Assembly: GCA_963576725.1 (NCBI GenBank) | Contig: OY755237.1 | Coordinates: forward strand, 62,470,979-62,534,978 | DNA: 64,000 bases | Origin: Azorinus chamasolen | Lineage: Eukaryota; Mollusca; Bivalvia; Cardiida; Solecurtidae | Direction: 5' to 3' | Part shown: positions 223-63,911 of the stretch, one piece after another | Layout of the letters: each line of letters starts with the position of its first letter | Position numbering within the stretch: position 1 is the first letter of the stretch | The notes under the pieces: generated by a model | Databases searched by the model: none | The model's input: the letters and a program-made list of their open reading frames with translations, nothing else | What the model was told of the DNA's origin: nothing | Program-made: the position numbers and the translations under genes

Positions 223-476
223 TTAACCCTTTACCTCATTGAGACACCCATTTCAAGTCTTTGCAAACAGACAATAATCTGTAGGTGCCACCTTATCAGT
301 GTCTACTCTGTTTGCTTTAGTACTTATAGAATTATATAGATCTGATCCCTTATTTTCTGCCACGGCAAATAAATCGAGAACTATACAAATATACATGTAC
401 CATTATAAAAATTCTGCTAATTGACAGTCATAGAGTCATTACTTCTTACATAACTATCCATCAGGTGAAGGGTTAA
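223..476 (+). mobile_element. TTAA-B MITE, degenerate copy
   Basis: TTAA and CCCTTTACCTC open the copy and GAAGGGTTAA closes it. The central palindrome is decayed (GCAAACAGACAATAATCTG). Its right TTAA is shared with the next copy, so the two elements abut head to tail. Confidence 0.55.
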
Positions 477-707
477 CCCTTTCCCTGATGAATATTCATA
501 TAGGAAATAATGACATTTTTTATAATGGCATATGAACACAGGACATTTTGGCTCTGACAGGCAGAAGCTGTAGAATCATATCTAGATATTACACCATAAG
601 CAAACAGAGCAGACCCTAATCAGACGGCTCCTATAGGAGCCGTCTGATCTGGGTCTACTCTGTTTGCAGATGCGTCAAAATGCGTTTACATAAGGGAAAA
701 AGGTTAA
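473..707 (-). mobile_element. TTAA-B MITE
   Basis: The ends are TTAACCCTTTCCCTG and AAAAAGGTTAA. The central stem is intact, with apex GGCTCCTATAGGAGCC at about 626-641. Arm order is GCAGACCCTAATC then GATCTGGGTCTAC, which is the minus orientation. Confidence 0.8.
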
Positions 708-814
708 CAGATATACAGTTCATTGATCTAGTTATATAGTTCAAGCTTATATGCCTAAGGCCAAGATAGTAAACATTTCAACACAATGTAAGTCAAATAA
801 GTAATTGTTTGTCT

Positions 815-1135
815 TTAATCAGCTCCTACTGTACTAAATTTGTTTTCGATTTGGATTGTTCAACAACAGTACTCATTTTGCTATTTAATCTTTTACTTCA
901 TAAATACACCTTCCTGCAACTTTGCAACAGAGTACTAAGAAGACCCAGATCAGACGGCTCCTATAGGAGCCATCTGATCAGGGTTTGCTTTATATGATAT
1001 ATTATAGATCTAATTCTACAGTTTCTGTCAATAAAAAAATATTTTTGTCCATAGTGCCATTATAACAATTCAGTTAATTAATGTTCATGATGTCATTTTT
1101 TTCTTTCCTGAACATTCATGGAGTAAAGGATTAAT
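815..1135 (+). mobile_element. TTAA-B MITE, left end degenerate
   Basis: The right half is clear: TATTATAGATCTAATTCTAC, then the CATTCATGG subterminal motif and GGAGTAAAGGATTAA. The core has a GGCTCCTATAGGAGCC apex. The left terminus is diverged, so the start is approximate. Confidence 0.6.
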
Positions 1136-1239
1136 CCAAATCATGCTTTTGTTTCCTGATTTTTAGTGTGCCCAGTATCAAGTCAGTCCACAGTAGTACC
1201 TTAGCCAGGGCCATTATCCAACCAACAGACCTATTAAAT

Positions 1240-1471
1240 TTAACCCTTTCCCTCATATAAATACTTTTCACACATTTGCAAACAGTGCAGACCCAGATCA
1301 GAGGACTCCTGTAGCAGCTCTCTGATCAGGGTCTGCTCTGTTTGCTTATGGATTATATAAACCTGATCAAACAGTTTTTTCAATGCAAAACATTCACTGG
1401 AAAACTTTACATTATAAAAATCAAGTTAATAAATGAATATTCATTAAGCGACCAAAAAAAGAGAGAGTTAA
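1240..1471 (+). mobile_element. TTAA-A MITE
   Basis: It starts TTAACCCTTTCCCTCAT and ends GAGAGTTAA. The core apex is damaged (GACTCCTGTAGCAGCTC) but both arms remain. Confidence 0.65.
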
Positions 1472-1814
1472 CAATACCCCCCATAATACTGATTGATATG
1501 TGAAGCAGCAACTTTTTTAATACACCAATAAACAGTTTGATACAACATAAAAAATCTTTAATACTTGAAATTCTTGAACTCATATTCACTCAGAATGCTT
1601 CTCTTATGTTGTACATTGACAAAACTGTATATTAACCTTTCCTCCATAGCTACACCTTTTTTGCCTTTGCAAACAATAGACCCAGATCACACTGCTCCTG
1701 TACCAGCCTTCTCCTACAGAAGTCTTTCAGCGAAGTTTACAACAAATACCAATGAACTCAACCATAAGCAATCACTGACTATTCCACTTTTAAAAATTCA
1801 GCATACTAATAATT

Positions 1815-2051
1815 ATTGATTGTTTACCTCATAAATATCTATGCACAAAATACTGACATAAGCAGTAGTAATTAGTTGAATTTTATAATGACATGAACAC
1901 ATCAGCATTTGGCCATGGCAGACACAGTAGAATCAGATTTATGGTATTCCTTAAGCAAACAGAGCAGGCCCTGATCAGACAGCTCCTACGGGATCTAGGT
2001 CCACTCTGTTTGCGAAGGCGTGAAAAGATGTATCTATCAGGTAGAGGGTTA
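1815..2051 (-). mobile_element. TTAA-B MITE, degenerate
   Basis: The right half of the stem has lost about 15 bases: GCTCCTACGGGATCTAGGTC replaces the usual apex and arm. It runs straight into the TA-T element that follows. Confidence 0.5.
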
Positions 2052-2053
2052 TA

Positions 2054-2255
2054 CAGTAGAACCCTAATGCGACCACTTAATGAATAAACATGGGTGTCTT
2101 TATAAGCAGGTGGTTGCTAAATGTAGGACAAAAGTAAAGCAGAAAGCTCCTCTAGGAGCTTTCTGCATTACTTTTGTCCTGCATTAAGCTACTACCTGCA
2201 TCTAGCACCCAGAATTATACCTCTTTTAGGTGGTCGCATTAGCGGGGGTTTACTG
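2054..2255. mobile_element. TA-T MITE (Tigger/pogo-like), intact
   Basis: The ends are CAGTAGAACC and the inverted GGGGTTTACTG, flanked by TA on both sides (2052-2053 and 2256-2257). The long inner palindrome has apex AAGCTCCTCTAGGAGCTT. The inner arms carry CAGGTGG and ACAAAAGTAA. Known fact: Tc1/mariner-pogo elements duplicate TA and often start CAGT. Inference: a non-autonomous member of that superfamily. Confidence 0.8.
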
Positions 2256-2284
2256 TAGTATCTCTACATTGGTCAATGACTTAC

Positions 2285-2489
2285 ACTGTGCAGGCAGTCC
2301 AGACACAAGGTTTGGCTGTTCCAAATAGGGGCAGGGAGGAGTACCAGGGTATTTGCTGGTCTTTAGGGACCTCAAAAATGGTGGATTCATGTCTGATACA
2401 GGTACCTCACTTCTATAGTCACTGGTGAGGCATGTGCATAAAACAGACACATAGAAGAATGGACTGGCTGTACTGATGCATGAAAATAA
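2285..2489 (-). CDS. PSMG1: PSMG1 exon 4 (partial gene; last exon seen)
   Basis: The exon follows a TTATTTCAG acceptor and ends at a GTAAGT donor after 205 bases. Its first codon is in phase with exon 3. It reads LFSCISTASPFFYVSVLCTC, then SDYR, PPFLRSLKTS and YLEQPNLVSGLPA. The last two motifs match the conserved PSMG1 segment between the central strand and the C-terminal helices. The exon ends in phase 1, so at least one further exon (about 70-80 residues in relatives) is needed. I searched the minus strand from 2284 to 1 and found no convincing continuation, so it probably lies off the left edge. Confidence 0.85.
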
Positions 2490-2526
2490 CTGAAATAACA
2501 CAAAAACACATGTTACAAATTTAATA

Positions 2527-2918
2527 TTAACCCTTTACCTCATAGATACACCTTTGACATCAGACATGATACTAGTACCAAATCAATGACAATAGCTCAG
2601 CTTCTATTTTACTGCAATTACTCAAAATATTCGACCAGGCAAATTTAAGTAGATAGTATAGACCCAGACCAAACAGTTCTAAGCAAACAGAGCATACCCT
2701 GATCAGATGGTTCCTATAGGTGCCATCTGATCTGAATTTACTTGAAACCATTGTGATAAATAGAGCTTTTGCTCCTATAGGAGCAAATGCTCTATTTATC
2801 ACAATGGTTTCAAACTACAAAATTCTAAAAAAAATCCTTTTCTCTAGTTAATGATACTTTTTGGTAGATTCATTCAAAGAGGTTGGGTCTAAAAATAGCC
2901 TATGGAGGAAAGGGTTAA
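2527..2918. mobile_element. Chimeric TTAA MITE (B/D-type left part, C-type right part)
   Basis: The left part, up to about 2742, carries a normal stem (GCATACCCTGATC ... GATCTGAATTTAC). It switches abruptly to the GAAACCATTGTGATAAATAG stem of family C, which then runs to a normal family C terminus, GGAGGAAAGGGTTAA. There is one TTAA at each outer end and none at the junction. This suggests recombination or template switching between families rather than simple nesting. Confidence 0.6.
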
Positions 2919-3059
2919 AAGGCATATGAATGAGGTAAAGGTGTATATATATATATAGAATAAAGGGGTTATACAATACAAGTAGAAATAATTCAATTTA
3001 AAACAGTTTGGATCTTGATCAATGAGGACAAGCATGTAGTCTTTTTTAGACAAATCCAC

Positions 3060-3259
3060 TTAACCCTTTCCCTCATATGAACGCCTTTTCATTTGCAAAC
3101 AGAGTAGACCCAGATCAGACGGCTCCTATAGGAGCCGTCTGATCAGAGTCTGCTCTGATTGCTAATGGACACCTTCCATATTTCATTATAACTATTTTGT
3201 CCATGAATATTCAGTAGGTATTGAAATTTGGAATAAACATAGAACAGGGAAAGGGTTAA
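3060..3259 (+). mobile_element. TTAA-A MITE, intact, short
   Basis: A clean 200-bp copy: TTAACCCTTTCCCTCATAT ... GAACAGGGAAAGGGTTAA. The apex is GGCTCCTATAGGAGCC and the arms are GTAGACCCAGATC and GATCAGAGTCTGC. It lacks about 60 bp between the stem and CACCTTCCATATTTC compared with longer copies. Confidence 0.85.
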
Positions 3260-5958: not shown

Positions 5959-6207
5959 TTAACCCTTTACTGCATAAATACACCTTGCTACACCTTTGCA
6001 AACAGAGTAGACCCAGATCAGACAGCTCCTATAGGAGCCGTCTGATCAGGGTCTGCTGTTTGCTCATGGTATAATATAGAAATGATTCTTCAGCTTTTGC
6101 CATTTCCATAAATTCCTTTGTCCATGTGCTATTATAACAATGAATCTACTTAATATTCATGATGTCATTATTTCTAAAATGAATATTAATGGAGTAAAAC
6201 GGGTTAA
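5959..6207 (+). mobile_element. TTAA-B MITE, intact
   Basis: TTAACCCTTTACTGCAT to GGAGTAAAACGGGTTAA, 249 bp, in PSMG1 intron 1. The stem apex is AGCTCCTATAGGAGCC. A small deletion removes CT from the right arm (GGTCTGCTGTTTGC). Confidence 0.85.
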
Positions 6208-12965: not shown

Positions 12966-13192
12966 TTAACCCTTTCCTCCATAGGCCTTTTTAGACCAAC
13001 CTCTTTGAATGAATCTACCAAAAAGAAGTATTAACTAGAGAAAAGGAAAATTTTAGAATTGTGTAGTATTGAAACCATTGAGATAAATAGGGCATTTGCT
13101 CCTATGGAGCAAATGCTCTATTTATCACAATGGTTTCAGGTAGTGACTATTACAGAGGCGTAGAAAGGCATATTTATGGAGGAAAGGGTTAA
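12966..13192 (-). mobile_element. TTAA-C MITE
   Basis: TTAACCCTTTCCTCCATAG to GGAGGAAAGGGTTAA, 227 bp. Two bases are missing at the apex (GCTCCTATGGAGC), which shortens but keeps the palindrome. Confidence 0.85.
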
Positions 13193-13618
13193 ACACAGGC
13201 TGTTGACTCTGATCAGCAATAGCTGTGGATAAGAGGTGTAATTAAATTAGGAAATCTAGATTAACAAATTGTGTTTCTCTAATTTAGACTGGGAAATAAG
13301 ACAATTAGATAAATCAGTACAAGTCCTATCTACAACACTGCCAGTAACCAGCCTCTCTAATTCCAATGTGATTGCTGATCCTGGTCTATGTTGTTTGGGA
13401 TTGTACTTTTACATTATAGAAGCTATTCTCATGTTATAACTCATAAAACATTGATTTAGAAATCAGACAGCTCCTACAGGACCGGTCTGATCTGCGTCTA
13501 CTCTTTTTACAAATGTGTAAAAGGCATATTTATGGAGTAAAGGGCTAAAAAGTAACACATTCATGACTTGTGTTCTTCAACATTCTCGTCTTAGAGTGTT
13601 TCCATTTTCAACACAATA

Positions 13619-13822
13619 CAATAAAACCTCTCTATAACGGCCACTAAATAACATAAAATATTTTGTGTTAAAGGCAGGTGGCTACTTAAAGCAAAGCGAA
13701 AGTAAAACAGAACGCTCCTATAGGAGCGTTCTGTTTTACTTTCACCTTGCTTTAAGCAAGCACCTGCCCTAAATACCAAGTAATTAACATAATTTAGTGG
13801 CCGTTATAGAGAGGTTTTACTG
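13619..13822. mobile_element. TA-T MITE, second subfamily
   Basis: 204 bp from CAATAAAACCTCTCTATAAC to the inverted GAGAGGTTTTACTG, with TA on each side. The termini resemble Tigger/pogo elements more than the other copies do (CTCTATAACGG). The apex is CGCTCCTATAGGAGCG. The internal sequence differs from the other TA-T copies except at the apex and CAGGTGG. Confidence 0.85.
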
Positions 13823-13929
13823 TACTTCAGCCATAGATTTGTTTGTTTGTACAGGGGTTTTACATCACTTTAACAGTATTTCAGTCATATCATGACATCC
13901 AGCTATTTACAGATGATTGCAAATGCCAC

Positions 13930-14645: not shown

Positions 14646-16010
14646 TTTAGCTCACCTGAGCAAAGCTCAGGGTGAGCTTTTGGGATACTTGAATGTCCGT
14701 CGTCCGTCGTCCGTCGTCCGTCGTCCGTCGTCAACAATTTGCTTGTGAACACTCTAGTGGTCACAATTGTAGTCCAATCTTCATGAAACTTGGTCAGAAT
14801 GAATTTCTTGATAAAATCTCGGACAAGTTCGAAAGTGGGTCAAGTTGGGTTAAAAACTAGGTCACTAGGTCAAATAGTAGGAAAACCTTGTGAACCCTCT
14901 ACAGGTCACATTTTTAGCCCAATTTTCATGAAACTTGGTCAGAATGATTGTCTTGATAAAATCTCGGAGGAGTTTGAAAAATGGGTCATGTGGGGTAAAA
15001 AACTAGGTCACTAGGTCAAACAGTAGAAAAACCTTGTGAACACTCTAGTGGTCACAATTTTAGTCCAATCTTCATGAAACTTGGTCAGAATGAATGTCTT
15101 GATAAAATCTTGGACGAGTTCGAAAGTGGGTCAAGTGGAGTTAAAAACTAGGTCACTAGGTCAAACAGTAGAAAAACCTTGTGAACACTCTAGTGGTCAC
15201 AATTTTAGTCCAATCTTCATGAAACTTGGTCAGAATGAATGTCTTGATAAAATCTTGGACGAGTTAGAAAGTGGGTCAAGTGGAGTTAAAAACTAGGTCA
15301 CTAGGTCAAATAGTAGAAATAACTTGTGAACACTCTAGTGGTCACATGTTTTGTCCAATCCTCATGAAACTTAGTCATAATGATTGTCTTGATAAAATCT
15401 TGGACGAGTTGGAAAGTGGGTTATGTGGGGTTAAAAACTAGGTCACTAGGTCAAATAGTAGGAAAACCTTGTGAACACTCTAGAGGTTACATTTATAGCC
15501 AAATCTTCATGAAAATTGGTCAGAATGATTGTCCTTATAAAATCTTGGACAAGTTTGAAAGTGGGTTATGTGAGGTCAAAAAGTAGGTCACTGGGTCATA
15601 TCTTAGAGAAATCTAGTTTACACTCCAGTGGCCACATTTTTAGCCCAGTCTTCCTCAAACTTTCTCAGAGTGCTTGTATTGGTGATATCAAGGTTGAGTG
15701 TGATCATGGGTTGGGTGGGAATAAAAAGTAGGTCACTAGGTTAAATCTTTGAAAAAATACTTTAGAGGGCACATTTTAGCCCAATCTTCATTGGTCAGAA
15801 TCATTGTCTTGATCAAATCAATAGACTAAATTTTTGAAACTCTTGTTCTGCAGAACCACTGCTCATGATTCACTGCTCATGATCCACTATCAACATTGTT
15901 CATATATTACCCCTAAGGTCAATATTGACCCTAACCATGGGCTACCCAGCAAAAATCTTAAATCTATGGTAATCAGGTGAGCGATTAAGGGCCATCTTGG
16001 CCCTCTTGTT
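14646..16010 (+). mobile_element. HINE copy 1 (Helentron-associated, 'pearl'-like), 1.37 kb
   Basis: The 5' end TTTTTAGCTCACCTGAGC can fold on GCTCAGGGTGAGC. A 7-bp microsatellite follows (CGTCGTC, several units from 14695). Then come about seven tandem units of 145 bp (for example 15036, 15181 and 15326), each with GTGAACACTCTAGTGGTCAC and AACTAGGTCACTAGGTCAAA. The 3' end carries TCAGGTGAGCG and a stem-loop AGGGCCATCTTGGCCCT before CTTGTT. Frames open in it are by-products of the repeat. It sits in a degenerate TTAA-A MITE: CGCTTTTT precedes it and CACATATTTGCAAA follows. Confidence 0.75.
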
Positions 16011-17922: not shown

Positions 17923-19233
17923 TTTTTAGCTCACCTGAGCAAAGCTCAGGGTGAGCTTTTGGGAGACTTGAATGTCTGGCGTGTATCGTCCGTCGTCAAC
18001 AATTTGCTTGTGAACACTCTAGTGGTCACAATTATAGTCCAATCTTCATGAAACTTGGTCAGAATGATTGTCTTGATAAAATCTCGGACGAGTTCGAAAG
18101 TGTCTCGTGTTGGGTCAAAAACTAGGTCACTAGGTCATATAGTAGAAAAATTTTGTGAACAATTTAGAGGTCACATTTTCAGCTTAATCTTCATGAAACT
18201 TTGTCAGAATGATTGTCCTGCTAAAATCTTGGATGAGTTTGAAAGTGGGTCATGTAGTCTAAAACTAGGTAACCAGGTCAAATAGTAGAAAAACCTTGTG
18301 AACACTCTAGAGGTCACATTTTCAGCCCAATCTTCATGAAACTTTGCCAGAATGATTGTTTTGATAAGATCAAGAATGAGTTCGAAAGTGGGTCATGTGA
18401 GGTCTAAAACTAGGTCACCAGGTCAAATAGTAGAAAAACCTTGTGAACACTCTAAGGGTCACATTTTCAGCCCAATCTTCATGAAACTTAATCAGAAAGA
18501 TTGTTTTGATAAAATCTTGGACAAGTTTTAAAGTGGGTCATGTGGGGTCAAAAACATGGTCACAAGGTCAAAAAGTAGAAACACCTTCTGAACATGCTAG
18601 AGGTTACATTTTATGTCCAATCTTCATGAAACTTAGTCAGAATGATTGTCTTGATAAAATCTCGAACAAGTTAAAAGTGGGTCACATGGGGGTAAAACAC
18701 TAGGTCAAATGGTAGGAAAACCTTGTGAACATGCTAGAGGTCACACTTTTAGCCGAGGCTTCATGAACCTTAGTCAGAATGAATATCCTGATAAAATCTT
18801 GTGTGAGTTTGAAAGTGGGTTAAGTGGGGCCAAAAAGTAGGTCACTAGGTCATATCTTAGAAAAAAATCTTGTTTATACACCAGCGGCCACATTTTTAGC
18901 CCAATCTTCCTCAAACTTGCTCAGAATGTTTGTCTTGGTGATATCAAGGTTGAATGTGATAATGGTTGGGGCGGGATCAAAAAGTAGGTCACTAGGTCAA
19001 ATCTTAGAAAAAGGTCACATTTTTAGCCCAATCATCATTGGTCAGAATGATTGTCTTGATAAAATCAATATTCTAAATCTTTGAAAATCTTGATCTCCAG
19101 AACCACAGCTCATGATCTACTATTAACATTATTCCCTTAGGTCAATATTGGCCCCATCCTGGGACTACCCAGCTATACTCTTAGATCTATGGTAATCAGG
19201 TGAGCGATTAAGGGCCATCTTGGCCCTCTTGTT
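17923..19233 (+). mobile_element. HINE copy 2
   Basis: It has the same 5' hairpin end as copy 1 after a T-run (CATTTTTAGCTCACC). The microsatellite is almost absent. There are about seven 145-bp units, and the usual AGGGCCATCTTGGCCCT stem before CTTGTTT. It is in the same orientation as the other three copies. Confidence 0.75.
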
Positions 19234-19497: not shown

Positions 19498-19674
19498 TGG
19501 AACTCATTCCCTCAAAACCATATTAAAAAGAGAAAAAGAACATGTTAGAATTGTGTAGTTTTTAAACCATTGTGATAAATGGAGCATTTGCTCCCATGGA
19601 GCAAATGCTCTATTTATCACAATGGTTTTAAAAAGTGACTTTTACAGAGGTGTCAACATGAGGGAATGGGTGAA
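19498..19674 (-). mobile_element. TTAA-C MITE, internal deletion
   Basis: The stem GTTTTTAAACCATTGTGATA has apex GCTCCCATGGAGC. Ends are CATTCCCTCA and TGAGGGAATGGGTGAA, without intact TTAA. Confidence 0.6.
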
Positions 19675-20036: not shown

Positions 20037-20190
20037 TAATTAGCCATTTCACTCATATAAACACATTTGCAAACAGAGTAGACCCAGACCAGACAGCTCC
20101 TATAGGAGCCGTCTGATCAGGGTCTGCTCTGTTTGCATTTGACACAAAATAGATCTGATTCTACTGAATGTTAATCTTTTCATTGTTTGA
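20037..20190 (+). mobile_element. TTAA-A MITE, right half truncated
   Basis: The full stem is present (GTAGACCCAGACC, apex AGCTCCTATAGGAGCC, GATCAGGGTCTGC). Only a short part of the right side follows it. Confidence 0.6.
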
Positions 20191-25196: not shown

Positions 25197-25446
25197 TTAA
25201 CCCTTTCCCTCATTTAAACGTATTTTCATGCATTTGCAAACAGAGTAGACCCAGATCAGATGGCTCCTATAGGAGCCGTCTGATCAGGGTCTGCTCTGTT
25301 TGCTAAAGGAATTTGATAGATCTGTTTCTATACTTTCTAATATGGCTACAATGTTCCATCTTCCATATTTTATAACAATTATTTTGTTCATGAATGTTCA
25401 GAAGGTATTGAAATTTGAACTAAACATAGAACAGGGAAAGTGTTAA
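25197..25446 (+). mobile_element. TTAA-A MITE, full length
   Basis: 250 bp, TTAACCCTTTCCCTCATTT to GAACAGGGAAAGTGTTAA. The stem is intact with apex GGCTCCTATAGGAGCC. This is a good reference copy. Confidence 0.9.
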
Positions 25447-25906: not shown

Positions 25907-26199
25907 TTGAACTTCGATATCTCAAACTTCAATGGAGCATACAAATTAGTTTGAGATAACAGATTTCTGATCTGGACAATTTCTTACGTTCACAGTTTAA
26001 TGAAAGTCTAAAGTAATGCTGAAAGCTCCTGTAGGAGCTGCCGGCATTGCTTTAGACTTGCATTGAGCTGTCACACATGTTTGTTGATATGCGTAGTTAT
26101 ACATTTTAGAGCAATTCTGTATTGTAAGTTTTGAAAGGACAGAACTATTAGTTTGATTTATTCAGAGTTATCCAAGTTCGAGATATTGAAGTACATGTA
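25907..26199. mobile_element. Diverged Tigger-like palindromic element
   Basis: CAGTTGAACTTCGATATCTC at the left pairs with GAGATATTGAAGTACATG at the right. The inner palindrome has apex AGCTCCTGTAGGAGCT, like TA-T, although the termini differ. Confidence 0.6.
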
Positions 26200-28114: not shown

Positions 28115-28345
28115 ATAACTCTTTCCTCCATAAATACGCCTTTCTACACCTCTGTATAAGTCACCTGTTGAAACCATTGTGATAAATAGAGCATTTGCTC
28201 CTATAGGAGCAAATGCTCTATTTATCACAATGGTTTCAAATTACAAAACTCTGAAAAAAATCCTTTTCTCTAGTTTATGCTCCTTTTTGGTAGATGCATC
28301 TAAAGAGGTTGGATCTAAAAATAGCCTTAGAGGAAACTTTCCCCC
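28115..28345 (+). mobile_element. TTAA-C MITE
   Basis: AACTCTTTCCTCCATAAATA opens the copy. The stem is perfect with apex GCTCCTATAGGAGC. The right terminus is eroded (GCCTTAGAGGAAAC). Confidence 0.75.
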
Positions 28346-28404: not shown

Positions 28405-28505
28405 ACTTAAATCGTCATTTCTCCACCAAAGCCTTTACTGTGACCACTCTTTAGAATCGTCTCTTCGAGATGATTCTAAAGAGTGGTCACACTATAGGGT
28501 TTGGT
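28405..28505. repeat. Hairpin element (GTGACCACTC type)
   Basis: TGTGACCACTCTTTAGAATC pairs with GATTCTAAAGAGTGGTCACA around TCTTCGA. The same hairpin recurs at 52262-52366, where CCACCAAACC and GGTTTGGTGG extend the arms. Confidence 0.65.
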
Positions 28506-28783
28506 TGAGAAATAAAGAAGTTATTCATGAAACTGTTGAACTTTACACACCTTATCTCGAAGTTATCTGGACATCTGGCTAGTTGTAGGCATAATATAAG
28601 TCATAAACAAAGGCTTGTAACTTGTAGCAATTGTATTCTGTATAAGTTTCTGTTTTGCCTTGTTATGTTGAAAAAAGAGAGTTTCGTCTTATTTTGGTTT
28701 TAGTATATGTCAGACTGACATTTCACTTTTCTAGTAAGCATTATTTGCAGACAGATGAGACCAATGAGAATTTGTGGTTGAAT

Positions 28784-29014
28784 TTAACTCTTTCCTCCAT
28801 AAATACGCCTTTCTACGCCTCTGTAAAGATCACTTTAAGAAACCATTCTGATAAATAGAGCATTTGCTCCTATAGGAGCAAATGCTCTGTTTATCACAAT
28901 GGTTTCAAAACTACATAATTCTAAACTTTCCCTTTCCTCTAGTAAGTGCTCCTTTTCGGTAGATTTATTCAAAGAGTTTGGGTCTAAAAAAAAGCATATA
29001 GAGGAATGGGTTAA
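28784..29014 (+). mobile_element. TTAA-C MITE, intact
   Basis: 231 bp, TTAACTCTTTCCTCCAT to GAGGAATGGGTTAA. The perfect apex is GCTCCTATAGGAGC. Its right TTAA is the left TTAA of the next element. Confidence 0.88.
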
Positions 29015-29933: not shown

Positions 29934-30069
29934 GTTATAAAATTTCTGAGTCTTAGATCATTCTCAAGTATCTGATTGGTCAGATTCTGAGTTTGCTCAG
30001 AATCTGACCAATCAGATGCTTGAGAATGATCTTAGACTCAAGCAAAACGTTTTATAACCTCGGGGCCTG
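29934..30069. repeat. Long hairpin (GATTGGTCAGATT type), copy 1
   Basis: GGTTATAAAATTTCTGAGTC and TCAAGTATCTGATTGGTCAG pair with their inverted copies around GAGTTTGCTC. It interrupts a family D MITE after GGGCTCCTAGA. Confidence 0.75.
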
Positions 30070-30166: not shown

Positions 30167-30303
30167 TAGGTTATAAAACGTTTTGCTTGAGTCTGAGATC
30201 ATTTTCAAGCATCCGATTGGTCAGATTCTGAGCTTGCTCAGAATCTGACCAATCATATACTTGAGAATGATCTAATACTCAGAAGTTTTACTTTTATAAC
30301 CTT
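30167..30303. repeat. Long hairpin (GATTGGTCAGATT type), copy 2
   Basis: The same arms as copy 1, about 100 bp away, again inside a TTAA MITE (the stem GTAGACTCAGATCATAC stops just before it). The arms are about 65 bp. Confidence 0.75.
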
Positions 30304-34615: not shown

Positions 34616-34818
34616 TTAACCCTTCGCTTGCTAGTCACGTCAATATACCTACCTGTAAATAGTGAAGACCCAGATGAGACAGCTCCTGCAGGAGCTGTCT
34701 CATCAGGGTCTGCACTATTTACAACTTGATTGTGCAACCAGTGCACTCCAGAGCAGTGATTGCACAGCGATATACTGATGGAGAAATGTATTTTAAAATT
34801 CAGCAAGCGAAGGGTTAA
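34616..34818 (+). mobile_element. TTAA-E MITE, intact
   Basis: 203 bp, TTAACCCTTCGCTTGCTA to the inverted AGCAAGCGAAGGGTTAA. The stem is AGACCCAGATGAGA, apex CAGCTCCTGCAGGAGCTG, TCTCATCAGGGTCT. Unique internal GTGCAACCAGTGCACTCC. A second copy is at 63662. Confidence 0.88.
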
Positions 34819-36106: not shown

Positions 36107-37421
36107 TTTTTAGCTCACCTGAGCAAAGCTCAGGGTGAGCTTTTGGGAGACTTGAATGTCCGGCGTCCGGCATCAACAATTTGCTTGTGAACACTCTAGT
36201 GGTCAAAATTTTAGTCCAATCTTCATGAAACTTGGTCAGAATGAATGTCTTGATAAAATCTCGGACGAGTTCGAAAGTGGGTCAAGTTGGGTTAAAAACT
36301 AGGTCACTAGGTCAAATAGTAGAAAAACCTTGTGAGCCCTCTAGAGGTCATATTTTTAGCCCAATTTTCTTGAAACTTGGTCAGAATGATTGTCTTGATA
36401 AAATCTCGGAGGAGTTTGAAAAGTGGATTACATGGGGTGAAAAACTAGGTCACTAGGTCAAACAGTAGCAAAACCTTGTGAACCCTCTAGTGGTCACAAT
36501 TTTTGTCCAATCTTCATGAAACTTGGTCAGAACGAATGTCTTGATAAAATCTCAGACGTGGTTGAAAGTGGGTCAAGTGGGGTTAAAAACTAGGTCAAAC
36601 AGTAGAAAAACCTTGTGAACACTCTAGTGGTCACAATGTTTGTCCAATCTTCATGAAACTTGGTCAGAACGAATGTCTTGATAAAATCTCAGACGAGTTT
36701 GAAAGTGGGTCAAGTGGGGTTGAAAACTAGGTCACTAGGTCAAACCGTAGAAAAACCTTGTGAACACTCTAGTGGTCACATTTTTTGTCCAATCTTCATG
36801 AAACTTGGTCATAATGATTGTCTTGATAAAAGCTCGAATGAGTTTGAAAGTGGGTAATGTGGGGTTAAAACTTGGTCACTAGGTCAAATAGTAGGAAAAC
36901 CTTGTGAACACTCTAGAGGTCACATTTATAACCAAATCTTCTTGAAAATTGGTTAGAATGATTGTCCTAATAAAATCTTGGACAAGTTTGAAAGTGGGTT
37001 ACGTGTGGTCAAAAAGTAGGTCACTGGGTCATATCTTAGAAAAATCTTGTTTACACTCCAGATGCCACATTTTTAGCCCAATTTTCCTCAAACTCGCTCA
37101 GACTGTTTGTCTTGGTGATATCAAGGTTGAGTGTGATCATGGATGGGGTGGGAATAAAAAGTAGGTCACTAGGTCAAATCTTAGAAAAAGTACTCTAGAG
37201 GGCAAATATTTAGCCCAATCTCCATTGGTCAGAATCATTGTCTTGATAAAGTCAATATTCTAAATCTTTGAAAATCTTGTTCTGTAGAACCACTGCTCAT
37301 GGTCCACTATCAACATTGTTCAAATATTGCCCCTAATGTCAATATTGGCCCTCTAACTAGCAAAAATCTTAAATCTATGGTAATCAGATGAGCAATTAAG
37401 GGCCATCTTGGCCCTCTTGTT
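36107..37421 (+). mobile_element. HINE copy 3
   Basis: TTTTTAGCTCACCTGAGC after GGAT. A short GTCCGGCGTCCGGC microsatellite. About seven 145-bp units, one with a 14-bp deletion around 36590. 3' TCAGATGAGC and the AGGGCCATCTTGGCCCT stem. Confidence 0.75.
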
Positions 37422-38606: not shown

Positions 38607-39620
38607 GGTTCTAGGACATTAGCCCACCCGGATGACAGCCCACTTTTTCTCTAAGGGCGGACATTAGCCCACTCATGGTTTTGTAGGGGGCAGACATTAG
38701 CCCACTTGTGGTTTTGTGGAGGGCGGACATTAGCCCACTCGTACTTTTTTGATGGGCGGACATTAGCCCACTCGGACACTACACCCCTCGGGCAGTAGAC
38801 CCCTCGTAATTTGCTCACCTATTTCTGTATGTCTGTAAGGCCAAATGACTGCAAAAATAATATCTTCGACTTTAGATCGGAGCAACATAATTTTATTACA
38901 CAAATTTTATTTTTCGGTAATGTTCGAACAAGTACGTTGAACTACAAGGTAATGGTCCGAAATGTTTGGACAAGGGATAAAAAAAATCACAGACGACTGC
39001 ATTCTCTAACATTCCCGCATCAATTGTTTCAGGGATTCGGCTAAAGGTTTATACATTGCCCGGCAACGGAATTGAACATATTGAAAGCAGTGTTCGTGTT
39101 TATTAAATAGAAATAAATTTGGGAAAAAAATTTCATTCAATTGACAGTATCAGTACAGTCTTTTTCATGTTTATATTTTAACACTAACAATCAATGTAGC
39201 GAATTATTCATGATTTGTCAAACAGTGCAGTGCACAGAAACATAAACAAACATTATAACTAAGATAATTAGGGGCCAAACATCCCCGGTCCGAAAGAGAC
39301 TTGTTTTCCGTAACATAAAGAACCAGTAAGAGTAGCAGAATATTTGATAAATCATGGGTAATTACAACGCTTTTCACCTAATTGGGAGTGTGAATAAACA
39401 TACACGTATATTATAATCTCGAGGGGTCTATTGTCCGAGTGGGCTAATGTCCGCCCATCAAAAAACCACGAGTGGGCTAATGTCCGCCCTCCACAAAACC
39501 ATGAGTGGGCTAATGTCCGCCCCCCCACAAAACCACGAGTGGGCTAATGTCCGCCCTTAGAGAAAAAGTGGGCTGTCATCCGGGTGGGCTGTCATCCGGG
39601 TGGGCTAATGTCCGTTTACC
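38607..39620. mobile_element. 1-kb foldback element with 9-bp target duplication
   Basis: A perfect direct repeat GTATTATCA flanks the element (38598-38606 and 39621-39629). The ends GGTTCTAGGACATTAGCCC and the inverted GGGCTAATGTCCGTTTACC start inverted repeats of about 200 bp. The arms are built from 4-5 units around GGGCGGACATTAGCCCACTC spaced by GGTTTTGT linkers. The middle, about 600 bp, is unrelated sequence without a credible gene. A 9-bp duplication with long inverted ends is typical of Mutator-like and some foldback elements; the family is not assigned. Confidence 0.85.
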
Positions 39621-39951: not shown

Positions 39952-40403
39952 TTAACCCTTTAAATGCTGATCTTTTAACCCTTTCCCTGTTCTATGTTTA
40001 TTACAAATTTCAATACCTACTGAATATTCATGGACAAAATAGTTATAAAGAAATATGGAACATGGAGCATTGTAGCCATTTTAGAAAGTAAAGACGCAGA
40101 TCTTTGAAATTCTATTAGCAAACAGAGTAGACCCTGATCAGACGGCTCCTCTAGGAGCCGTCTGATCTGGGTCTACTCTGTTTGCAGATACATGAAAACA
40201 CGTTTATATGAGGGAAAGGGTTAAAGCAGAATGGTCCATCCATATATATAAGTCCAATCTGTATGAAAGGATATAAGTTTGAGAGAAATTTAAATGGCAA
40301 ACAGTGCAAACCCAGATCAGAGGGCTCCTCTAAGATCCCTTTGATCTAGGTCTACACTGTTTGCAGATGAGATTCCACTTGTTTCCTGCATTCAAAGAGT
40401 TCA
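39952..40403 (-). mobile_element. TTAA-D MITE interrupted by a TTAA-A MITE
   Basis: Left TTAACCCTTTAAATGCTGAT. After the insertion it continues AGCAGAATGGTCCATCC, the stem GCAAACCCAGATC ... GATCTAGGTCTAC and CATTCAAAGAGTT. Confidence 0.78.
39975..40224 (-). mobile_element. TTAA-A MITE, full length, nested
   Basis: 250 bp, TTAACCCTTTCCCTGTTC to GAGGGAAAGGGTTAA, inside the family D copy. The apex GGCTCCTCTAGGAGCC is perfect. The left arm reads GTAGACCCTGATC, so one of the two usual arm differences has been lost. Confidence 0.9.
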
Positions 40404-42903: not shown

Positions 42904-43103
42904 ATTTAACCCTTTACCTCATAGGCTATTTTTAGGTCCAACCTCTTTGAATACATGCACCGGAAGGGAACATTAAATGCAGAAAAGGATTATTTTAGAA
43001 TTTTGTAGTTTGAAACAATTGTGATAAATAGAGCATTTGCTCCTATGGAGCAAATGCTCTATTTATCACAATGCCTTCAACATGTGACTTTTGCAGAGGC
43101 GTC
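42904..43103 (-). mobile_element. TTAA-C MITE, right end lost
   Basis: TTAACCCTTTACCTCATAGG at the left. The apex is GCTCCTATGGAGC. It breaks off after GACTTTTGCAGAGGCGTC and meets a TA-T scrap (TAACTTAATGCAGAC). Confidence 0.75.
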
Positions 43104-44124: not shown

Positions 44125-45388
44125 TATTAGCTCACCTGAGCAAAGCTCAGGGTGAGCTTTTGGGAGACTTGAATGTCTGTCGTCCGTCGTCCGTCGTCCG
44201 TCGTGCGTCGTCAACAATTTGCTTGTGAACACTCTAGTGGTCACAATTGTAGTCCAATCTTCATGAAACTTGGTCAGAATGAATGTCTTGATAAAATCTC
44301 GGACGAGTTCGAAAGTGGGTCAAGTTGGGTTAAAAACTAGGTCACTAGGTCAAATAGTAGGAACACCTTGTGAACCCTCTAGAGGTCACATTTTTAGCCC
44401 AATTTTCATGAAACTTGGTCAGAATGATTGTCTTGATAAAATCTCGGAGGAGTTTGAAAAGTGGGTTACGTGTGGTAAAAAACTAGGTCACTAGGTCAAA
44501 CAGTAGAAAAACCTTGTGAACACTCCAGTGGTCACAATTTTAGTCCAATCTTCATGAAACTTGGTCAGAATACATGTCATGATAAAATCTCGGACGAGTT
44601 CGAAAGTGGGTCAAGTGGGGTTAAAAACTAGGTCACTAGGTCAAACAGTAGAAACCTTGTGAACACTCTAGTGGTCACAATTTTAGTCCAATCATCATAA
44701 AACTTAGTCAGAATGATTGCCTTGATAAAATATCTGACGAGTTCAAAAGTGGGTTATATGGGGTCAAAAACTAGGTCACTAGGTCAAATAGTAGGAAAAC
44801 GTTGTGAACACTCTAGATGTCACAGTTTTAGCCCTATTTTCATGAAACTTAGTCAGAATGCTTGTCCTACTGAAATCTCGGATGAGTTTGAAAGTGGGTC
44901 ATGTTGAGTCAAAAACTAGGTCACTAGGTCAAATAGTCGAAAAACTGTGTGAACACTCTGGAGGCCACATTTGTGGCCTAATATTCATGAAACTATCAGA
45001 ATAATTGATTTGATAAAGTTTTGGATGAGTTTGAAAGTGGATCATGTGGAGTCAAAAACTAGGTCACTAGGTCAAACAGTAGAAAAAACTTGGGAACATT
45101 CTAGAGGTCACATTTTTAGTCCAATTGTCATGAAACTTGGTCAGTATGATTGTCTTGATAAAATCTCGGACGAGTTTGAAAGTAGGTCATGTTGGGTAAA
45201 AAAGTAGGTCACTAGGTCAAACAATAAGAACACCTAATGAACACTCTAGAGGTCACATTTTTTGCCCCATATTCATGAAACTTGGTCAGAATGATTGCCT
45301 TAATAAAATCTCTGATGAGTTTTGAATGTAATGACTAGTACCCCACTTTCTCAGGTGAGCGATATAGGGCCATCTGGGCCCTCTTGTT
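44125..45388 (+). mobile_element. HINE copy 4
   Basis: TATTAGCTCACCTGAGC, then four CGTCCGT-type microsatellite units and about seven 145-bp units. The 3' end is shorter than in the others: TCAGGTGAGCGATATAGGG followed directly by CCATCTGGGCCCTCTTGTT, so the stem has mismatches. Confidence 0.75.
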
Positions 45389-46630: not shown

Positions 46631-46829
46631 ACATTAGAACCTGTCTTAAGCGACCATCAAAAAGAGGTATAATTATGGGTCTGTAAGGCATGTGGTAGCT
46701 TAAGGCAGGTCAAAAGTAATGCAGAAAGGGAGCTTTCTGCATTACTTTTGTCCTGCATTAAGCAACCACCTGCTTTTTAAAACTCCTATGTTCAATAAAT
46801 GGATGGTCACTTAAGAGAGGTTCTATTGT
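46631..46829. mobile_element. TA-T MITE, third subfamily
   Basis: ATTAGAACCTGTCTTAAGCG pairs with CTTAAGAGAGGTTCTATTG. The inner palindrome lost its apex (AGAAAGGGAGCTTTCT). It lies 120 bp after SYAP1 exon 7. Confidence 0.75.
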
Positions 46830-48933: not shown

Positions 48934-49170
48934 TTAACCCTTGCCCTGTTCTGTATTTAGGCCAACTTTCAATACCTACTGAATATTCGTTAATATAAAG
49001 AAATATGGAAGGTGGAACGTTGTAGACATTTTAGAAAGCAAAGAAACAGATCTATAAAATTCTATTAGCAAATAGAGCAGACCCTGATCAGATGGCTCCT
49101 ATAGGAGCCATCTGATCTGGGTCTACTCTGTTTGCAAATGTGTGAAAACACGTTTATATGAGGGAAACCA
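48934..49170 (-). mobile_element. TTAA-A MITE, right terminus lost
   Basis: TTAACCCTTGCCCTGTTC; perfect stem with apex GGCTCCTATAGGAGCC; ends at GAGGGAAACC. A family B copy (49178-49385) follows. Confidence 0.8.
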
Positions 49171-50117: not shown

Positions 50118-50283
50118 TTATAAAGCTTTTAGTTGAGTCTGAGTTTCGTTCTCAGGCTTTTGATTGGTCAGATTTGAGTTCTCAAGCTTTTGATTGGTCA
50201 GATATGAGCCAAAGGCTCAAATCTGACCAATCAAAAGCTTGAGAACGATCTCAGACTCAACTAAAAGCTTTATAAGCATGGAC
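50118..50283. repeat. Long hairpin (GATTGGTCAGATT type), copy 3
   Basis: CCATGCTTATAAAGCTTTTA and TGATTGGTCAGATTTGAG pair with inverted copies around GAGCCAAAGGCTC. The left arm carries a 30-bp internal duplication. It sits within a TTAA MITE between GATCTGGG and ACCCAGTTC. Confidence 0.75.
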
Positions 50284-51690: not shown

Positions 51691-51930
51691 TAACCCTTTC
51701 CTTCATAAAAATGCATTTGCAAACAGAGTAGACCCAGATCATTTGCAAACAGAGTAGACCCAGATCAGACGTCTGATCAGGGTCTATTCTGTTTGCTAAT
51801 GGAATTTGATAGTTCTGTTTGTTTACTTTCTAAAATGGCTACAATGTTCCACCTTCCATATTTCATAATAACTACTTTGTCCATGAAATGCAATAGGTAT
51901 TGAAATTTGGAATAAAAATAAAAGAGGTTA
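51691..51930 (+). mobile_element. TTAA-A MITE with duplicated left arm
   Basis: TTAACCCTTTCCTTCATA to AAAAGAGGTTAA. TTTGCAAACAGAGTAGACCC occurs twice in tandem before a minimal apex CAGACGTCTG, consistent with slippage at the stem during replication. Confidence 0.8.
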
Positions 51931-52261: not shown

Positions 52262-52366
52262 AACCCACTCCTTCATTTCTCTGTCAAATCCTATGTTGTG
52301 ACCACTCTTTAGAATTGTCTCTTTGAGATGATTCTATAGAGTGGTCACAACATAAGGTTTGGTGGA
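52262..52366. repeat. Hairpin element (GTGACCACTC type), copy 2
   Basis: CCACCAAACC ... TTGTGACCACTCTTTAGAAT pairs with ATTCTATAGAGTGGTCACAA ... GGTTTGGTGG around TCTCTTTGAGA. The left arm carries an extra ACTCCTTCATTTCTCTGTC. Confidence 0.7.
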
Positions 52367-53557: not shown

Positions 53558-53636
53558 ATCGAGGGCTTGGAGCAAAACTATTCTAACTCCTTCACAAAGT
53601 GAAGGAGTTAGAATAGTTTTACACCAAGCCCTCGAA
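53558..53636. repeat. Short-loop hairpin element
   Basis: TCGAGGGCTTGG, CAAAACTATTCTAACTCC and TTCAC are followed by their inverted copies with a 2-base turn. The arms are about 38 bp with few mismatches. Confidence 0.8.
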
Positions 53637-54756: not shown

Positions 54757-55015
54757 AGTAAAAACCCCTCTAATGCGGCCACCAAAAAGGGGCATAATTC
54801 TAGGTGCCTGATGCAGGTGGCAGTTTAATGTAGGACGAAATTTATGCAGAAAGCTCTCTGCATTACTTTCATCCTGCATTAAGCAGCCACCTGCTTATAA
54901 AGACAACCATGTTTATTCATTACACGTTACACGTACACGTTGAAACGAATAAAGTATATCTGTCTGTCTGTCTGTCTGTCTGTCATTAAGTGGCCACATT
55001 AGTGGGGTTCTACTA
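54757..55015. mobile_element. TA-T MITE with a later insertion
   Basis: CAGTAAAAACCCCTCTAATG to the inverted GTGGGGTTCTACTATA. About 75 bp (54906-54984) ending in a CTGT microsatellite are inserted, with CATTA on both sides as a possible target duplication. Confidence 0.75.
54957..54984 (+). repeat. CTGT microsatellite
   Basis: Seven CTGT-type units close the short insertion, preceded by ACACGTTGAAACGAATAAAG. Confidence 0.85.
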
Positions 55016-56151: not shown

Positions 56152-56379
56152 TTAACCCTTTCCTCCATAAATACGCCTTTCTACGCTTCTGTAAAAGTCC
56201 CTTTATGAAGCCATTGTGATAAATAGAGCATTTGCTCCTATAGGAGCAAATGCTCTATTTATCACAATGGTTTCAAACTACACAATTCTAAAATTTTCCT
56301 TTTCTCTAGTTAATGCTCCTTTTCGGTAGATTTAATCAAAATGGTTCGATCTAAAATAGCCTATGGAGGAAAGGGTTAA
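56152..56379 (+). mobile_element. TTAA-C MITE, intact
   Basis: 228 bp, TTAACCCTTTCCTCCATAAA to GGAGGAAAGGGTTAA, perfect 14-base apex. A reversed, worn family B copy follows (56380-56554). Confidence 0.9.
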
Positions 56380-59476: not shown

Positions 59477-59479
59477 CAT

Positions 59480-59879: not shown

Positions 59880-60090
59880 TTAACCTTTAGCCTGCTGAAC
59901 AAATTATTTTTACAGAATTTTTCACTTACTACATTTTCAAAATTGAAGCTATAAATCAATTTATCAAATTTCAATCAGACTGTCAAACAGTTTGGATCTT
60001 GATGAGACGCCGAGTCACTCGGCATCTCATCTGGATCCAAACTGTTAGCATAGGTATTCACTCATCCGCCCATAGCAGGCTAAAGGTTAA
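59880..60090 (+). mobile_element. TTAA-F MITE, intact
   Basis: 211 bp, TTAACCTTTAGCCTGCTGA to the inverted TAGCAGGCTAAAGGTTAA. The core is AACAGTTTGGATC, TGATGAGACGCCGAGTC, ACTCGGCATCTCATC, GATCCAAACTGTT: a different stem with a GAGTCACTC apex. Confidence 0.85.
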
Positions 60091-60190: not shown

Positions 60191-60368
60191 AAGTAGAACC
60201 CCTCTAATGTGACCACTTAATGAATAAACACGGGTCTTTATAATAGGCAGGTGGTTGCTTAATGCAGGACAAAAGTAATGCATTACTTTTGTCCTGCATA
60301 AGCTAACACCTGCATCTAGCACCCATAATTATACGTCTTAGGTGGTTGCATTAGCGGATTTTAATGTA
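60191..60368. mobile_element. TA-T MITE, apex deleted
   Basis: GTAGAACCCCTCTAATGTG at the left. The inner arms meet directly (CAAAAGTAATGCATTACTTT), so the whole GCTCC apex is missing while the rest of the stem remains. Confidence 0.8.
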
Positions 60369-61143: not shown

Positions 61144-61240
61144 AATCTTAGCCATGGTTTTAATGTCCTTGAAAAGTTGAAAACCTAAACTGATCATTAG
61201 ACAGACCAAAACACATCTGCTTGTAATAGTCTTGTAGCTA

Positions 61241-61453: not shown

Positions 61454-61562
61454 ACCCCTCAGGTAGCTATCAGTGTGTTGTGAACAGTAGAATTATTGTT
61501 GATAAAAGATGCTTTTCTGCTTGTCTGTTGACAAGACCTTTCTTCCATCTATGCACACAACT

Positions 61563-61798
61563 TTAAACCATTCCCTGTATCATATTTATTCAAGATTTCT
61601 TCACCTCATGATTATTCATGGACATGTGCAGTAAAATGGGAACATGGAAAAGGAAATCTTTTCACTGTTGTGGAAAGTGCATGGTCAGATCTATAAATTT
61701 CCATAAGCAAACCGAGCAGATCCTGATCAGACGGCTCCTATAGGAGCTGTCTGATCTGGATCTGCTCTGTTTGCAAATGTATATGAAGGAAAGGGTTA
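61563..61798 (-). mobile_element. TTAA-A MITE
   Basis: TTTAAACCATTCCCTGTATC to GAAGGAAAGGGTTAA. Apex GGCTCCTATAGGAGCT. Confidence 0.78.
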
Positions 61799-61886
61799 AG
61801 AGGACGAGACACTTTAATTTCAAACTACTTTGCATTAATGTAGTAGCAGATTTTCTGTTATAATATTGGTAATTAAATTTTAGTTC

Positions 61887-62118
61887 AGTTTACCCCTTAC
61901 CTCATGACTTCTCATGTAAGAAATAATGACATCATGAAAATTAATTAAATACATTTCTGGATTTGCACATGAGCACAGGAAAAGTTTGGCTCGAACAGAA
62001 ACTGCATCATCGGATCTGTATTATTCTGTAAGCAAACAGAACAGACCCTGTAGAAGCTGTCGGATCTGGGTCTTCTCTGTTTGCAAAGGTGGGGTGGCGT
62101 ATCTCAGGTTAAGGTTTA
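61887..62118 (-). mobile_element. TTAA-B MITE, left arm deleted
   Basis: GTTTACCCCTTACCTCATGA; ACAGACCCTGTAGAAGCTGT lacks the left arm; right end GTTAAGGTTTAA. Confidence 0.65.
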
Positions 62119-62271
62119 AAACATTTTTGAGAAAGTGTTATAAATGTTTTATAATGTGACCCAGGTAGAAATGCTACCATACCCTTTCATTACAGTGAGC
62201 AATTGCATGAAACAATAGCAAGGGGACTGACATTGCAAACAGTATTTTCATTCACCCAAATGATGAGCATA

Positions 62272-62500
62272 TTAACCCATTCCCTCATATTGACGACTTT
62301 TGACGACTCTGTAAAAGCCACTTTGTGAACCATTGTGATAAATAGAGCATTTGCTCCTATAGGAGCAAATGCTCTATTTATCACAATGGTTTCTAACTAA
62401 AAAATTCTAAAAAATTTCCTTTTCTCTAGTTAATGCTCCTTTTCGGTAGATTTATTCAAAGAGGTTGTATCTAAAAATAGCCTATGAGGTAATGGGTTAA
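62272..62500 (+). mobile_element. TTAA-C MITE, second subfamily, intact
   Basis: 229 bp, TTAACCCATTCCCTCATATT to GAGGTAATGGGTTAA. Perfect apex GCTCCTATAGGAGC; pairs with the subfamily of the 52459 copy. Confidence 0.9.
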
Positions 62501-62518
62501 TATTAAGTACATGTATAC

Positions 62519-62705
62519 AGTAAAGACCCTCTAAACTGGAATTTCACCATTTTAGTATCAATGTTGACATTTAATGCACGGTGAAAGTCATACAGAGGGC
62601 TACCAAAGCTTTGTGTATGACTTTCACCTTGCATTAAGCAACCACCTGCCTGAAAGTATCTAAATTCTTCTTTACTAAATGTCTGGTTTAGAAGGTTTAT
62701 TTTCT
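62519..62705. mobile_element. TA-T MITE, diverged
   Basis: CAGTAAAGACCCTCTAAACTG to the inverted TTTAGAAGGTTTATT. The inner stem is GTGAAAGTCATACAGAGGGC with a broken apex (TACCAAAGCTTTGTG). Confidence 0.6.
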
Positions 62706-62936
62706 GTACATACTTGTTATAGAAGCATTATTAGGCTGTGAGTTAAATAGTCAATGAACTGCTTTTTAAAGGGAGTTAACTTTTGCGTAGTTACGTGCTT
62801 TTATATATTGGAGGTATTCCGAAATGTTTATTGTTGAGCAAAGAAAGCAGGTGTGCTGATTTACTTTTCATTTTGTTTATCTCAGTTTTTAGAGATGCTT
62901 AAATTAATGTGGTTTATTTTCACTATTTTGTTTGAA

Positions 62937-63185
62937 TTAACCCTATACTCCAAAAATACACCTTTCTGTGCCTTTGCGAACAGAGTAGACCCAGATCAGA
63001 TGACTCATAAAGGAGTCTTCTGATTAGGGTCTGCTCTGTTTGCTTATGATATGATATAGATATGGTTCTACAGTGTCTGCCATTGCAAAAGATTCCTGTG
63101 TCCATGTGCTATTATAACTGTTAATCTAATTAATATGCATGACATCATTATTTCTCACATGAATATTCATGGAGTAAAGGGTTAC
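62937..63185 (+). mobile_element. TTAA-B MITE, full length
   Basis: TTAACCCTATACTCCAAAAA to GGAGTAAAGGGTTAC. Apex GACTCATAAAGGAGTC. A TATATA microsatellite follows at about 63245-63270. Confidence 0.82.
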
Positions 63186-63269
63186 ATGAACATAGTGTAT
63201 GTGTATATCAACTATTCATGATATGGATGTGTTGTTATTTATACTATATATATATATGTATGTATATAG

Positions 63270-63661
63270 TGGTTAAATATTTGGTTATGTATTATATATT
63301 ATTATGATGATGTTAATTATAGTGATAAAAACTGCAAGTTACAACAGGTGATATTGAGGAAGTGAAACCTATATTTACTGGGCTGTGAGAAAAATACTGT
63401 CACCAAAAAACCCCAACCTGTCACCACATCCTGCATGTATCTGGTCAAGGTCAACAATGTTATCACAAATGCTGATTAGTGTCAGAATTTATATCTTTAT
63501 CAAATGCTGTAACATGTCAAACAATGTACATTGTAGATTGGCACTGGATTCAATTATTTTGAAATACTTATTTTAGATGCCTTTGAAAAAGCTGAATTAA
63601 ATATTTCAAAGTTTGGAACATTAATTGTTTGTTTATTTATTTGTATCAAGGTCTTACCGTT
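63270..63661. other. No recognised feature
   Basis: AT-rich sequence. The frame at 63385-63576 has no protein-like composition or splice support. Confidence 0.4.
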
Positions 63662-63911
63662 TTAACCCTTCACTTGCTATTCACGTCAATATACCTACCT
63701 GTAAATAGTGAAGACCCAGATGAGACAGCTCCTGCAGGAGCTGTCTCATCAGGGTCTGTACTATTTACAAGTTGATTGTGCAACCAGTGCACTCCACAGC
63801 AGTGATTGCACAGCGAAATACTTGTACACAGTGAAGATATATGTAATTATACAACAGGGCATGGGTAAAGAAGGAGAAATGTATTTTGAAATTCAGCAAG
63901 AGAAGGGTTAA
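63662..63911 (+). mobile_element. TTAA-E MITE with 47-bp extra segment
   Basis: TTAACCCTTCACTTGCTA to AGCAAGAGAAGGGTTAA. Stem and apex are identical to the copy at 34616. The length difference of about 47 bp comes from a TTGTACACAGTGAAGATAT-type insertion near 63820-63865. Confidence 0.85.

Follow-up and report, generated by a model that had tools for sequence, protein, structure and literature searches.

The window analysed here is a stretch of 64,000 nucleotides from the bivalve Azorinus chamasolen (assembly GCA_963576725.1, 1,723,440,353 bp in 137 contigs; contig OY755237.1, positions 62,470,979 to 62,534,978), and all window positions are counted from its first letter. It contains miniature inverted-repeat transposable elements (MITEs) of several families, here called A, C and T with their relatives, whose hairpins carry a common short palindrome at the centre, referred to below as the tip. 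The conserved unit was GCTCCT-N2-AGGAGC, i.e. two 6-base half-sites around a central dinucleotide that varied (AT, CT, AC, GT, GC and others), and both half-sites were common to the lineages. A first-pass annotation of the window had described a conserved 14-base apex at the centres of MITE hairpins; the GCTCCT and AGGAGC half-sites were indeed shared, but the central dinucleotide was free. The ten tip coordinates that it gave all hold to within 7 bases.

The tip in the window and the genome

The exact 14-mer GCTCCTATAGGAGC was found 14 times in the window, together with five copies of the variant CTCCTCTAGGAG (in four A copies and one T copy) and two of the variant CTCCTGCAGGAG, both in D copies (the hairpins starting at 34654 and 63700). 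When any central dinucleotide was accepted (GCTCCTNNAGGAGC), the window held 24 sites. All 24 were located at the centre of a longer hairpin, with complementarity in at least 11 of the next 15 bases beside each site, and the pattern was absent from 30 first-order Markov windows. Flanking complementarity at the 14 exact sites was 7-10 of 10 bases and 16-20 of 20 bases. The word alone does not entail such arms: in 50 viral stretches containing the 14-mer, complementarity of the flanks reached at most 7 of 10 or 12 of 20 bases (one stretch ended at 5).

The whole assembly contained 178,273 exact 14-mers and no copy of the same pattern read backwards. A genome sample drawn at fixed positions from 16 contigs, in 26 stretches of 10 kb each (260 kb including 3,186 N), yielded 26 exact 14-mers, which extrapolate to about 172,000 genome-wide in agreement with the direct count, and 63 GCTCCTNNAGGAGC sites, which extrapolate to about 418,000. 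None of the other 59 orderings of the six half-site letters occurred in this sample. When half-sites with a 2-base gap were ranked, the tip came first with 63 occurrences, followed by a word with 19, and the remainder listed had at most 3. The runner-up, CATGAANNTTCATG (19 in L063-L088), is seemingly derived from the A1 tail. CTCCNNNNGGAG was central in 52 of the 112 palindromes found in the first 20 sample stretches. In a larger sample of 348,112 bases, which includes the window and eight stretches picked for the 14-mer, 99 of the 102 exact GCTCCTNNAGGAGC sites (two of them counted twice because of the L057/L058 overlap) had complementary arms. These results confirm the apex and place it in hundreds of thousands of copies.

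In A and C the hairpins form a subterminal part rather than the whole element. A elements were about 250 bp long (200-270 bp in the window) and C elements about 230 bp (227-231 bp), both with TTAA ends, and the hairpin centre was about 73 bp (A) or 89 bp (C) from one end. A simple pattern recognised TTAA at both ends in 11 of 18 A and 5 of 11 C window copies; the others had a changed end, were composite or escaped the pattern. In alignments, the terminal inverted repeats of A and C begin with CCC (TTAACCCTTTCC.../...GGAAAGGGTTAA), and the first ~40 bases are common by eye to A1-type A copies and C. From these termini, we take A and C to be putative piggyBac-type MITEs, with which they share the TTAA ends and the terminal repeats and from which they differ by a strong subterminal hairpin and by a conserved tip shared with TA elements. 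T elements were about 210 bp long with a central palindrome of about 80-95 bp. By eye, T1 and T2 have TA-flanked TACAGTARAACC ends with CAGTARAACC as inverted repeats, and the outer ends of T4 differ. T is presumably a pogo/Tigger-type TA MITE, a class assigned from the termini; the TA-flanked ends of T1 and T2 resemble that type, whereas the central palindrome with the tip sets T apart from it.

Table 1. Hairpins of the tip-bearing families and their relatives in the window
Feature	Positions	Tip and remarks
A hairpin	600..667	exact tip at 627
T1 central hairpin	2106..2199	variant tip GCTCCTCTAGGAGC at 2146
C hairpin	2742..2813	exact tip at 2771; adjoins A-type hairpin (tip 2710, two changes)
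A hairpin	3090..3167	exact tip at 3122
A hairpin, A1 type	6009..6054	exact tip at 6025; TTAA-side terminus resembles that of C
T2 element, imperfect palindrome of 208 bp	13617..13824	exact tip at 13714
A hairpin	20068..20137	exact tip at 20096
A hairpin, A2 type	25236..25303	exact tip at 25263
T4 hairpin	25992..26071	tip GCTCCTGTAGGAGC at 26025
C hairpin, perfect palindrome of 72 bp	28168..28239	exact tip at 28197
C hairpin	28839..28906	exact tip at 28866
D hairpin (A lineage)	34654..34723	tip GCTCCTGCAGGAGC at 34682
A hairpin	40118..40185	variant tip GCTCCTCTAGGAGC at 40145
A hairpin	49064..49139	exact tip at 49095
A hairpin, shorter perfect palindrome	51740..51801	tip deleted symmetrically
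C hairpin	56206..56275	exact tip at 56234
F hairpin, A-lineage stem, TTAA on one side	59986..60046	different tip GCCGAGT-C-ACTCGGC
T1 hairpin, shorter perfect palindrome	60262..60299	tip and inner stem deleted symmetrically
A hairpin	61707..61774	exact tip at 61734
C hairpin	62328..62391	exact tip at 62353
D hairpin (A lineage)	63700..63769	tip GCTCCTGCAGGAGC at 63728

The C hairpin at 2742 belongs to a C/A composite at about 2680-2813. Two further hairpins (46688-46773 and 54813-54894) have lost the tip wholly or partly. Long-palindrome families without the tip were found at 28417-28513, 29947-30040, 30188-30281, 50178-50246, 52285-52361 and 53559-53635, and relatives of most of them occur in the genome sample. 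The window also contains four separate arrays of a 145-bp tandem unit (CTTGTGAACACTCTAGWGGTCACA...) with about seven copies each (14742-15746, 18007-19012, 36184-37189 and 44222-45322). Two arrays of 33-bp units (38654-38774 and 39436-39556) look mutually reverse-complementary, and each is followed by a 16-bp-unit array of other sequence. Ten open reading frames of at least 110 residues were present; a protein search with one window frame of 135 residues returned three candidates, none of which reached an E-value of 0.001.

Stem lineages and exchange of halves at the tip

Kinship of the stems was assessed for 55 pairs by aligning consensus arms, read by eye, outward from the tip against shuffles. 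The stems of A, D, E, F and G belonged to a single lineage, and those of T1, T2 and T4 to a second (for every pair, 0 of 500 shuffles). Outside the tip, the arms of A and C, A and T1, and C and T1 were at chance (permutation values of 0.81, 0.49 and 0.73, respectively). Among the pairs listed, low values across lineages (D-T1 and C-T2, both 0.04) and with the tip-less family I (F-I, 0.04; C-I, 0.012) were taken as multiple testing. Judged by their arms, three stem lineages share the tip: A (TTAA, including the TTAA-A/B copies of the first-pass annotation as well as D and E), C (TTAA) and T (TA, several subfamilies). The earlier proposal that MITE families with unrelated stems and with either TTAA or TA ends have one tip in common therefore holds for A, C and T, and the tip was not confined to one lineage of related elements; such confinement was what the first-pass annotation had named as speaking against its proposal. 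Its description of the stems as unrelated is accurate between the A, C and T consensus arms and inaccurate within the A lineage (A, D, E, F, G) and within T (T1, T2, T4). The palindromes H, I/J, K and L had neither an A-type stem nor the tip.

Arms of the same lineage faced each other across the tip at nearly all sites of the larger sample: the 102 exact GCTCCTNNAGGAGC sites comprised 57 A/A, 27 T/T and 15 C/C pairs and three sites with one arm unassigned, with no pair from different lineages. One of the sites carrying two changes (L064:7077) was scored T/C; we read it as a C copy that underwent a small deletion. Another 20 exact sites, consecutive on one contig, were all read by eye as A, C or T. 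Genome-wide, 64,434 sites had a pyrimidine at -3, and almost all of the matches listed read as C. Rare families beyond A, C and T may exist outside the samples. The word CAGA, two bases outside the tip, was common to A and most T copies (CAGANNGCTCC).

Sites combining arms of different lineages were then sought in the whole assembly. The pattern of an A arm opposite a C arm matched 125 sites (54 + 71), and 12 of these, spread over contigs, were examined from the 100 listed. Eight of the 12 were A/C hybrids (L110, L112, L113, L114, L115, L117, L118 and L120), the halves of which align to the reference halves within one base of the tip centre. All four combinations were represented (A-head/C-head, 2; A-head/C-tail, 3; A-tail/C-head, 2; A-tail/C-tail, 1), and several hybrids, e.g. 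L112 and L113, span from TTAA to TTAA. If the same fraction is true among the 125 sites, about 80 hybrids are expected genome-wide. In addition, L074:9240 has a C arm with the tip running into the beginning of an A hairpin. These results show that A and C elements swapped halves, with the tip as the junction. The tip equals its own reverse complement, so that any half of one element can join any half of another in either orientation.

The remaining four sites (L109, L111, L116 and L119) were A elements without the TTAA-side stem arm up to the tip, called by BLAST and by eye for L109, L116 and L119 and by eye for L111, the arm-less half of which had no BLAST match. Another one-armed A element was found at L072:9058. 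The new flank of the one-armed elements reads GCATTTGCTCC, a word of the inner C stem; the match is weak evidence because the query that found these elements required CATTTGCTCC. L109, L111, L116 and L119 share one arm loss, between CATTTG and CTCC, a junction that the query selected; it either arose repeatedly by deletion at a 2-base repeat or marks a variant that was amplified.

A T right arm together with a non-T left arm was matched at 962 sites genome-wide (476 + 486), and the letters were examined for 77 of the 100 listed. No C arm stood opposite a T arm among these 77. Four of them had CAGACG or CAGATG, which is A-like and two changes from T, and 13 had CAGACA or CAGATA, one change from T1; judged by these letters, all 17 could be either A arms or changed T arms. 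Many of the 77 sites were one base off a T arm, and six had CAGGTGGCTCC, which a deletion within the T2 stem would produce. The first-pass annotation had raised an exchange of the centre between TA and TTAA copies; no such exchange was established among the T/non-T sites read. The swapping of A and C halves comes close to it, although both partners are TTAA elements.

Explanations for the shared tip

We tentatively favour, at appreciably less than an even chance, the explanation that an old hairpin module has had its tip kept by selection in source elements, the tip serving also as an exchange junction. GCTCCT-N2-AGGAGC would then be the tip of an old cis-acting hairpin module in the non-autonomous transposons A, C and T. 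The lineages would either have had the tip before their stems diverged or have gained it long ago; the stems would have drifted while staying paired, and the tip would have been retained in source copies as the target of some activity. A candidate, akin to the common host or transposon factor suggested in the first-pass annotation, would be a protein that binds DNA as a dimer, or else one that handles the hairpin once it is extruded or transcribed. A more specific form, which we regard as rather unlikely though worth stating, makes the tip a recognition site of a host hairpin-tip factor that helps unrelated TTAA and TA transposons to multiply, and an orientation-free exchange point as well.

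To evaluate constraint on the tip, copies were chosen by their stem alone and divergence was compared between tip and stem; a tip protected in all copies would be expected to diverge less. The tip/stem values were 0.098/0.121 for A (129 copies), 0.131/0.199 for E (14), 0.062/0.118 for T1 (39), 0.011/0.023 for C (22) and 0.060/0.029 for T2 (14); the D, T1t, T1c and T4 sets retained 3, 2, 1 and 0 copies, respectively. The stem divergence of A and T1 is inflated because these sets are mixed: most D and some E copies were grouped with A, and other T subfamilies with T1. The divergence pattern fits neutral decay after insertion and offers no support for a function in resident copies. Any selection would act in source elements, where the tip survived while the stems diverged. 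Pairing in the stems was also examined. Among 133 A-lineage copies, pairing was 11% at stem position 17 and 16% at position 24. The base opposite position 17 was A in 26 and T in 4 of 30 oriented A copies, where the orientation filter required A on the TTAA side at this position and left only the opposite base free. The same mismatch was present in D, in some E copies and in 5 of 6 F and 1 of 3 G copies printed. Its persistence indicates that the arms were not wholly re-copied, since re-copying would erase it. By eye, A and D differ by paired changes, indicating that pairing was kept piece by piece.

Several observations weigh against the selected-module explanation. The unmixed sets, C and T2, oppose each other, so that there is no consistent excess of tip conservation. 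F and G have A-type stems and bear other tips, and because these branches keep the stem with another tip, the tip is replaceable rather than indispensable. Three C copies in the window (13070-13138, 19559-19633 and 43018-43072) have a tip that is one base shorter, with a 3-base centre; they look like an amplified C subfamily, because several more occur in the genome sample. The D-T1 and C-T2 values leave a distant kinship of the stems possible, and Rfam at its gathering threshold gave no match in the window.

Another reading is that the tip has no function of its own and passed from family to family through recombination at hairpin tips or template switching there. Halves of A and C joined inside the tip in all four combinations, the C arm with tip joined to an A-hairpin start and the first bases common to A1-type A copies and C are all as this reading expects. 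However, swapping halves makes no new symmetrical stem around an old tip, and the hybrids are rare, being absent from the 102 sites of the sample and estimated at about 80 genome-wide. The T/non-T sites examined offered no C arm, and their 4 + 13 A-like arms are ambiguous. Exchange without function is, in our estimate, on the unlikely side. Plain common ancestry, in which all the hairpins go back to one ancestor and the tip, as a remnant, happens to have stayed unchanged, would account for the CAGA word outside the tip in A and most T copies, for the clear relationship of the stems within T and within A and for the weak D-T1 and C-T2 values. We consider it improbable, because the A-T1, A-C and C-T1 stems are at chance beside an identical 12-base tip and because the element ends differ (TTAA versus TA).

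A mechanism that builds palindromes had been proposed in the first-pass annotation, with the tip as its seed. The self-complementary tip would prime fold-back synthesis and the flank would be copied into a new inverted repeat, so that stems are replaced and the tip stays. This would account for the central position of the tip and for the unrelated stems; one-armed tips, the expected substrates, exist, and the covered part of PMC7999016 reports such priming by short inverted repeats in cells of yeast and mammals. Nevertheless, the palindrome expected from the one-armed A elements (CATTTGCTCC..GGAGCAAATG with the A-spacer on both sides) had no site genome-wide, and the A lineage retained the position-17 mismatch that re-copying would remove. 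The absence of this product rejects one product and not the idea in general. The two results together weaken the proposal, which we now hold to be decidedly doubtful. Coincidence between families would require only six half-site bases per family, since symmetry dictates the other six. Its probability for 3 of about 7 stem lineages distinguished by eye sharing a 6-base half-site is nevertheless about 2 in a million (35 x (1/4096)^2), and no half-site in the 260-kb sample was comparable in frequency (63 versus 19 for the next and at most 3 for the rest listed). We give chance practically no weight. The selected-module explanation remains the one that we would tentatively put forward.

Relation to known systems and significance

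A search of 6 kb against Rfam by E-value gave 37 sub-threshold matches, mostly to microRNA families. The best was mir-580 (4e-11, 58.6 bits versus a threshold of 83), on the tip-less palindrome at 29947. The histone 3' stem-loop, considered for its similar shape, was absent from the matches of both Rfam searches. The A-, T- and C-arm patterns had no match in viral contigs, in collections that may omit the window's own genome, and in bacterial and archaeal genomes the A-arm pattern had four matches, none of which belonged to an extended hairpin as far as the printed context shows. In short interspersed elements (SINEs), a short conserved core domain joins unrelated heads and tails. The present tip is likewise a short part shared among otherwise unrelated families; unlike the SINE cores, it belongs to DNA transposons and the shared part is the tip of a hairpin.

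The closest descriptions we found come from the haemoglobin genes of another bivalve, Lucina pectinata (PMC4732748). According to the section covered, repeat consensus 1 is 210 bp long with 30-bp inverted ends and a 77-bp central palindrome, which resembles the architecture of T, and consensus 2 has a 68-bp self-complementary segment (74% identity), which resembles the A hairpin in length. The authors state that the two share a short segment. The repeat sequences are given in a figure, so that the comparison made here is by description, and the section offers no interpretation of the shared segment (PMC4732748). That a short palindrome can seed a larger one has been described for chromosome breaks, in the part of PMC7999016 covered; unlike that situation, the one product predicted here had no site genome-wide. 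The main text of a study of Mercenaria mercenaria (Farhat et al. 2022, PMC8905726) mentions no MITE, palindrome, hairpin, inverted repeat or non-autonomous element, and has piggyBac in one table row. The covered parts of PMC10294476, PMC5139131 and PMC6210712 contain nothing on the tip. More widely, the titles and abstract openings covered, from freely accessible papers, describe no tip shared between MITE families, and within the same coverage the 14-mer, its shorter forms and six arm words turn up only in papers on unrelated subjects.

Termini and target site are the usual basis for grouping MITE families, the interiors of which are regarded as junk. In A. chamasolen, hundreds of thousands of interior 12-base tips cut across the division between TTAA and TA elements. 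Recognition of the tip, if it occurs, would point to a host step common to different transposases. If it is merely an exchange point, it shows how mosaic MITEs originate and provides a marked junction at which such events can be counted genome-wide. Under either reading, the question of why palindromic MITEs retain their hairpins becomes testable.

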